From Halobium salinum (GTDB taxonomy: Archaea > Halobacteriota > Halobacteria > Halobacteriales > Haloferacaceae), in assembly GCF_026586625.1 (NCBI RefSeq), contig NZ_JAODIW010000006.1, positions 905,061 to 969,060 on the forward strand: DNA of 64,000 nt, given 5' to 3'. Numbering within the stretch: position 1 is the stretch's first letter; each line of letters starts with the position of its first letter. Under the pieces are notes generated by a model. The model was not told where the DNA came from, ran no database searches, and worked only from the letters and a program-made list of their open reading frames with translations. A program made the translations under genes and the position numbers. Below, in pieces: positions 16,304 to 17,062 of the stretch.

Positions 16304-17062
16304 ATGACCGAGCCGGAACTCTACGACGACCTCAGCGGACAGGTCGCCCTCGTCACGGGCGCGAACCGCGGTATCGGGGCCGAAATCGCCACCCAGCTCT
16401 CCGAGCTCGGCGCGACCGTCTACGCCGGGTCCCGGAGTCAATCCAACGAGACGCCCGAAGGGACCGAGCGCGTCCTCCTCGACGTGACCCAGGAGGGAGA
16501 CGTCGAAGCCGCCGTCGACGGCATCTTCGACGAGGTCGGCCGCCTCGACGTACTCGTCAACAACGCCGGCGTCGGGGAGTTCGGGAACGTTCGAAAATCG
16601 CTCCGCGATTTTCGAGCCAACCAGAACGCTTCGCGTTCTGGTGACGACATCGTCGCGGAGCCCACCGCCGAAATCGACCGGACGCTGGCGACCAACCTCC
16701 GCGGCCCGATGGTCGTCTGCAAGCACGCCGTTCCCCTCCTTCTCCAGAACGAGGGCGGGCGCGTCGTCAACCTCTCCTCGGGGATGGGCGCGCTCAACGA
16801 GGCCCAGTCCGGCGGCTCCCCCTCGTATCGAATCTCGAAGACGGGCATCAACGGCCTCACCGCGTACCTCCACGGGGAGTACGCCGACGACGGCCTCATC
16901 GCCAACTCGGCGTGTCCGGGGTACGTCAAGACCGACATGGCCGGCGACGACGCCACCCGACCGGTGGAGAAGGGCGCCGAGACACCGGTGTGGCTGAGCC
17001 GGTTCGAGGCGGGGAGTCCCGCCGGCCGGTTCTGGCGGGACAAGGAAGTCATCGACTGGTAG
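16304..17062 (+). CDS. Short-chain dehydrogenase/reductase with in-frame palindrome insertion
   Basis: An NAD(P)-dependent SDR of 252 residues. The dinucleotide motif TGANRGIG is near residue 20, NNAG near 88, and the catalytic Ser (NLSSGMGA) plus Tyr-x-x-x-Lys (YRISKTG) follow at about 158-180, with the family PGYVKTDM segment. Between NNAGVGEFG and the EIDRTLATNL helix the protein carries about 17 extra residues (RKSLRDFRANQNASRSG) that are basic, unlike the rest. They are encoded by two adjacent perfect hairpins (see separate entry). The insertion preserves the frame. ATG at 16304 starts a normal SDR N-terminus; the upstream open frame is Arg-rich. Substrate unknown. Confidence 0.87.
   Translation: MTEPELYDDLSGQVALVTGANRGIGAEIATQLSELGATVYAGSRSQSNETPEGTERVLLDVTQEGDVEAAVDGIFDEVGRLDVLVNNAGVGEFGNVRKSLRDFRANQNASRSGDDIVAEPTAEIDRTLATNLRGPMVVCKHAVPLLLQNEGGRVVNLSSGMGALNEAQSGGSPSYRISKTGINGLTAYLHGEYADDGLIANSACPGYVKTDMAGDDATRPVEKGAETPVWLSRFEAGSPAGRFWRDKEVIDW
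16591..16642. repeat. Pair of perfect hairpins inserted inside the SDR gene
   Basis: Hairpin 1 has 11-base arms at 16591-16601 and 16605-16615 (TCGAAAATCGC and its complement) around the loop TCC. Hairpin 2 has 10-base arms at 16620-16629 and 16633-16642 (ACCAGAACGC and its complement) around the loop TTC. They are separated by GCCA. Their AT-rich arms contrast with the surrounding gene. The pair looks like a small palindromic element that entered the coding sequence without breaking the frame. Confidence 0.75.

Follow-up and report, generated by a model that had tools for sequence, protein, structure and literature searches.

A paired-hairpin repeat of haloarchaea inserted in frame in a short-chain dehydrogenase/reductase gene of Halobium salinum

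Introduction

Palindromic elements that lie in frame within protein-coding genes are best known from Rickettsia, and the habit has been described mainly in bacteria. Among other short palindromic repeats, the CGTC-tagged REPs have stems of 8-9 bp and loops of 4-5 bases and are said to lack a dedicated transposase (Di Nocera 2013, PMC3733652). The PATEs of Haloquadratum derive from IS605-type transposons with matching ends (PMC3119063).

Here, we report on a stretch of 64,000 nucleotides (hereafter, the window) from the 4.46-Mb genome of Halobium salinum, a haloarchaeon of the same family as Haloferax. A gene for a short-chain dehydrogenase/reductase (SDR) in this window contains two adjoining hairpins, which a preceding sequence-only reading had taken for a repetitive element inserted in frame. 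The analyses below support that view. They further make it very likely that the segment belongs to a non-autonomous haloarchaeal family of mobile paired hairpins, and that this copy inserted after (R)CG and has been tolerated as a hydrophilic loop, 19 residues long and free of stops.

Results

The host gene shows the features of a classical SDR, namely the adh_short domain and the TGANRGIG, NNAG, and Y-x-x-x-K motifs, and its reading frame is open throughout (Table 1). Two perfect hairpins, with 11- and 10-base arms, 3-base loops, and a GCCA joint, had been placed in frame in this gene at 16591-16642, and this description proved exact to the base. Covariance model R1 matches the site at 16585-16648 (E = 2.4e-27). 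As RNA, the hairpin tract folds at -34.2 kcal/mol (z = -6.9), and none of 200 shuffled sequences folded equally well; the DNA fold gave z = -7.0. The hairpin pair is far beyond chance expectation. A scan of the region for promoters and terminators found none, and an Rfam scan gave two matches, both far under the gathering scores and rejected as chance.

Table 1. Coordinates of the SDR gene and of the inserted element in the window.
Feature	Position	Strand	Support
SDR gene, insertion host, 252 aa, intact	16304..17062	+	Pfam PF00106 adh_short, E = 7e-38
Target side, AACG in the window; GACG in H. marisrubri and many empty orthologues	16586..16589	+	
Paired-hairpin insert, 57 bp, in-frame product VRKSLRDFRANQNASRSGD	16590..16646	+	Orthologue alignment; covariance model match
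Hairpin A, TCGAAAATCGC-TCC-GCGATTTTCGA, 11-bp arms, loop TCC	16591..16615	+	Sequence, fold
Linker GCCA, conserved family-wide	16616..16619	+	Copy comparison
Hairpin B, ACCAGAACGC-TTC-GCGTTCTGGT, 10-bp arms, loop TTC	16620..16642	+	Sequence, fold
Right-end tag GACG (other strand, CGTC), element-borne	16643..16646	+	GACG in 20 of the 23 listed in-gene copies

An AlphaFold2 model of the window SDR (pTM 0.77) reproduced the core well and assigned pLDDT values below 50 to residues 90-123, which include the insert. With low confidence, the insert is predicted to form a loop that lies after the NNAG strand and before the next helix, and such pLDDT values are what a flexible loop would give. This agrees with the position that the sequence-only reading had given it; the role in specificity that was also suggested carries no data, and neither an effect on specificity nor SDR activity has been tested. 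The basic character ascribed to the added residues holds for this copy, whose peptide has a net charge of +3, but does not extend to the family, because most in-gene members encode near-neutral or acidic peptides.

The SDR orthologue search covered 170 genomes of the family and gave a good match in 92 of them. Only two of the aligned full-length proteins are longer by 19 residues, both at one and the same place: the window SDR and its counterpart in Haloferax marisrubri SB3 (G030, L099). All the others lack them, including those of Haloferax, Salinigranum, Halogranum, Halogeometricum, and further genera, so that the absence of the segment from close relatives, a check set beforehand, was borne out. 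The first estimate of the addition, 51-54 bp or about 17 residues, was too short, as the orthologues give 57 bp and 19 residues. Both filled genes are interrupted at the identical base. Some empty sites read GGTGACG followed by AC, and the filled sites consist of AACG (window) or GACG (H. marisrubri), then 57 bp, then AC, with both inserts ending in GGTGACG. On the evidence of these alignments, the SDR segment is a true insertion.

The inserts of the window and H. marisrubri are identical at 46 of 57 positions. Their differences fall in the loops and in three base pairs of hairpin A, each of which is changed on both sides, and none are found in the hairpin B arms, the linker, or the ends. A tree of the SDR genes without the insert requires two gains, with the filled genes united in 0% of the bootstrap trees, and the H. 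marisrubri gene is 97.4% identical to that of an empty sister. Independent insertion at one site in the window lineage and in H. marisrubri is the simplest reading of these data.

The main rival to two insertions is transfer of the insert alone. A single insertion would mean that the filled sites share their origin through recombination between lineages or that the insert was precisely lost many times, which we consider unlikely but worth weighing. Cross-species recombination occurs in haloarchaea and would fit such an origin, and the identity between the inserts is comparable to the 79.7% identity between the two SDR genes; however, the flanks in H. marisrubri are of Haloferax type right to the junction, with no surplus similarity to the window, and the inserts differ as random family copies do, with loops and hairpin A varying and hairpin B and linker constant. 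It also speaks for a single event that the same site is filled even though 57-bp copies are few in both the window genome and H. marisrubri (one match listed for the latter). Yet the empty SDR site holds GGTGACG, the very letters of the element's right end, which suggests an insertion hot spot, and two UspA paralogues are likewise filled at an equivalent position. Independent insertion in the two lineages remains our preferred reading.

Further copies in the window genome (G000) have the layout hairpin-GCCA-hairpin-GACGAC with different arm sequences. Five copies, in part 57-bp ones, served to build a covariance model. At E<=1e-9 it detected the element in 128 of the 170 family genomes; among 391 haloarchaeal genomes, 241 gave matches at E<=1e-10, spread over 68 of 86 genera. 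In a high-copy genus, G053 had 90 matches and G055 had 60 at E<=1e-5, some of them representing one copy matched on both strands. Across 86 distinct 64-column copies, 95.7% of the stem cells are standard pairs, compared with 37-39% when the partners were slid. G-C, C-G, A-T, and T-A replace one another at the majority of stem A positions and at several in stem B; the loops of 3 bases vary almost freely. Comparison of the copies shows the stems to be maintained by compensatory changes and assigns the SDR segment to a repeat family. Recurrence of the hairpin pair in its own genome and throughout haloarchaea fulfilled the search for a repeat family proposed by the sequence-only reading, and neither outcome named as refuting it, a segment conserved across many genera or the lack of any other genomic copy, was seen.

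Other hairpin arrangements were observed alongside these copies. Intergenic chains of at least four perfect hairpins (8-11 bp, loops of 3 bases, linkers of 3-7 bases) occur in the window genome (L124, G000:C11:1203629; L123, G000:C10:71798) and in Halobaculum saliterrae (L116, ~1290-1600), and the paired element resembles a single unit of a wider modular hairpin repertoire. Copies of 55 bp are embedded in a longer repeat between genes, whose flanks resemble GGGACTCCGGAAGGGGCCGG ... GGGGCTTCCG (L119, L120, and L122; G000:C2:431942, C13:458544, and C13:279055). A related pair, GCCAGAACGC..GCGTTCTGGC-TATCCA-GCCAGAAACC..GGTTTCTGGC, is repeated beside A-rich/T-rich tracts (L126, L128, L131, and L133; G000:C11:514456, 1057987, 904969, and 341731), and one copy of this TATCCA-linked pair sits just beyond the window start.

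We queried 21 sites with their joined flanks and obtained gap-free matches in congeners across most junctions; the alignments of about 14 of the 21 were inspected. In one example, AAGTACGACG is directly followed by CC in congeners, and in the filled gene AAGTACGACG is followed by 57 bp ending in GACG and then CC. Left targets in the in-gene set are mostly GACG or GGCG and always end in CG. Since 20 of the 23 listed in-gene copies terminate on the right in GACG, even where GGCG stands on the left and in the empty site, the right tetranucleotide belongs to the element, and insertion makes no long target duplication. A 2-bp CG duplication is possible and not excluded. Beyond the two hairpins, no more than about 4 bases mirror each other (CGTY...RACG), and there are no clear terminal inverted repeats of the MITE/DDE type.

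In-gene status was called by applying a haloarchaeal codon model to the flanks of a sample of high-scoring matches, which is no full census. In this sample, 31 of 89 copies with a length that is a multiple of three lay in a gene with the frame kept, compared with none of the 48 whose length is not (Fisher p = 2e-7). All 19 of the confidently in-gene copies in G053 share the orientation and frame of the SDR copy, whereas the phasing of G[AG]CG targets in coding sequence leads one to expect only 39-45% for that frame. All frames of the element but one are mostly stop-free. The frame in use encodes the hydrophilic V-x-E-S-x-x-D-S-x-A-N-Q-N-A-x-R-S-G-D; the A loop cannot supply a stop in it, and the B loop does so only when it reads xTA. 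This is the case for a 57-bp copy in a small conserved ORF of Natronococcus jeotgali (L115, 1501-1560), where the loop TTA creates a TAG stop. Within genes, only copies whose length is a multiple of three occur, and nearly all of them use a single strand and frame.

There are exceptions to this orientation: antisense copies that are nevertheless in frame exist in an OBG-like GTPase gene (G080) and in TnpB genes. The GTPase gene with its antisense copy is present twice in G080 (L184 and L185; C2:1126389 and 1130681), identical over at least 1 kb and about 4.3 kb apart. The TnpB copies form an open, in-frame hairpin pair in the C-terminal tail (L093, Halorussus halophilus; L356, G306), and similar hairpin-pair remnants are found on plasmids of Halomontanus, Haloterrigena, Natrinema, and Natribaculum (L094-L097).

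The host genes are conserved ones and, named by eye from their ORFs, encode FAH-family and HAD proteins, S9 peptidases, two UspA paralogues, a phosphohexomutase, an aldo/keto reductase, TrpE-like, TruA, Nif3-like, GH3, and AstE-like proteins, and a DnaK-like C terminus. In-frame entry with survival of the gene had been thought uncommon; it is no rarity in haloarchaea. The UspA paralogues (L178 and L186, both in G053) are filled after KYD and RFD, respectively, suggesting that a conserved GACGCC target was struck repeatedly. Only one in-frame gene copy was recognized in the window genome. Two copies in its IS6-type transposase genes (C10:404268 and C10:168233) were rejected as in-frame survivors, as their lengths are indivisible by 3 and the first, read by eye, has an in-frame stop.

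Domestication would mean that the hairpins or the 19-residue loop are now useful, as mRNA structure or as a specificity loop. The perfect stems have been retained, which speaks for it, but recent or parallel insertion explains them equally well. Two AstE-like orthologues (L196 in G136 and L208 in G127) also lend it some weight, because their elements differ at 1 base, in a loop, over about 54-61 and their flanks are only 84% identical; this near-identity could mean that the element is strongly constrained, was transferred recently, or was inserted in parallel. Given unrelated host proteins, which speak against a common function, and a loop that AlphaFold2 predicts to be unstructured, we judge domestication to be improbable.

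Two further explanations find almost no support. An ancestral SDR segment, or an origin at the site itself through chance or template switching and without mobile DNA, has only the intactness of the gene across the hairpins in its favor and can hardly be upheld against the empty site in nearly all orthologues and the homologous copies elsewhere with the same linker and ends. Removal of the tract from the RNA as an archaeal BHB intron, or its skipping by ribosome bypassing, would suit the strong RNA fold but is scarcely credible, as the flanks are direct and not inverted repeats, leaving no BHB helix evident by eye, no Rfam match was obtained, and in-gene copies shun stops and shifts of the frame, a restraint for which an excised intron has no need.

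Discussion

We interpret the SDR segment as a mobile copy as follows. The family unit is 51-57 bp long and consists of hairpin A, a GCCA-type linker, hairpin B, and a GACG end. An enzyme acting in trans and recognizing the hairpins would insert this unit next to (R)CG; we infer such an enzyme from the lack of a long target duplication, the element's own right GACG, and the hairpins being the conserved part. Our best guess for the transposition step is an HUH/Y1-like single-strand mechanism, which we put forward tentatively. Y1_Tnp had no match in the window genome, and Y1 loci were found in 8 of 13 genomes searched, none bounded by the hairpin pair (tnpB-only elements lay outside this survey). 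In these searches, no Y1 transposase came to light as a neighboring autonomous partner; where R1 matches coincide with Y1 loci, they are insertions in their own right. Transposition is thus an inference; no event was observed, and no mobilizing enzyme was found.

Purifying selection may then clear frame-shifting, stop-bearing, and hydrophobic outcomes, as inferred from the bias in length, strand, and frame. The SDR gene presumably survived because its insert is a multiple of three and yields a stop-free hydrophilic loop in that strand and frame. We infer that the SDR with its loop stays active, although there are no activity data.

These elements might represent an undescribed class of coding-compatible mobile micro-elements in haloarchaea, a proposal that we regard as evenly poised. 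They would usually add a tolerated loop of 17-19 aa near (R)CG through an unknown mobilizing enzyme, hit the same sites repeatedly in orthologues and paralogues, and form an ongoing source of loops. The hairpins would suit such a role by a length that is a multiple of 3, a stop-proof A loop, and a hydrophilic, near-neutral frame.

No description of such an element in haloarchaea was found in the open full-text literature, the subscription literature being outside the search, and the word stem "halo" is absent from the paper on CGTC-tagged REPs (PMC3733652). Like the Rickettsia palindromic elements (RPEs), the haloarchaeal element is a short palindromic repeat found in frame within protein genes of many unrelated kinds, to which it contributes a peptide of its own, and it meets the RPE-type criterion of in-frame insertion with the ORF kept open. 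It differs from RPEs in being archaeal and in comprising two hairpins of 10-11 bp with 3-base loops in a total of 51-57 bp. With the CGTC-tagged REPs it shares CGTC/GACG at one end, a hairpin, frequent dimers, some intragenic copies, and the lack of a known dedicated transposase, whereas its stems are longer (10-11 bp), its loops have 3 bases, its tags stand at the outer ends, and it has the GCCA linker.

PATEs resemble the element in being haloarchaeal, in having palindromes near both ends, and in size range, with terminal-only versions of PATEs measuring 52 bp. No target duplication is reported for PATEs (PMC3119063); for our element, one of 2 bp (CG) is not excluded. In contrast to PATEs, no matching IS605 partner was found for our element, and its two palindromes are unlike each other; in-frame gene insertion is also not a theme in the passages on PATEs that were consulted. 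REPIN/RAYT systems (GTAG REPs) likewise consist of short paired palindromes that spread non-autonomously, but the haloarchaeal ends are of the GACG/CGTC type without a GTAG tag, and no RAYT-like gene flanked by the hairpins was found.

The haloarchaeal element matches none of these systems in all tested features. It provides a widespread archaeal counterpart to them, with dozens of insertions and matching empty sites in close relatives. Its hosts, Haloferax among them, are in part tractable, so that one can measure how new protein loops enter, are tolerated, and fare, and its strand and frame bias amounts to a natural experiment on the peptides that proteins accept. Finally, the CGTC tag that it has in common with the bacterial REPs raises the question of whether one mechanism operates in both domains.
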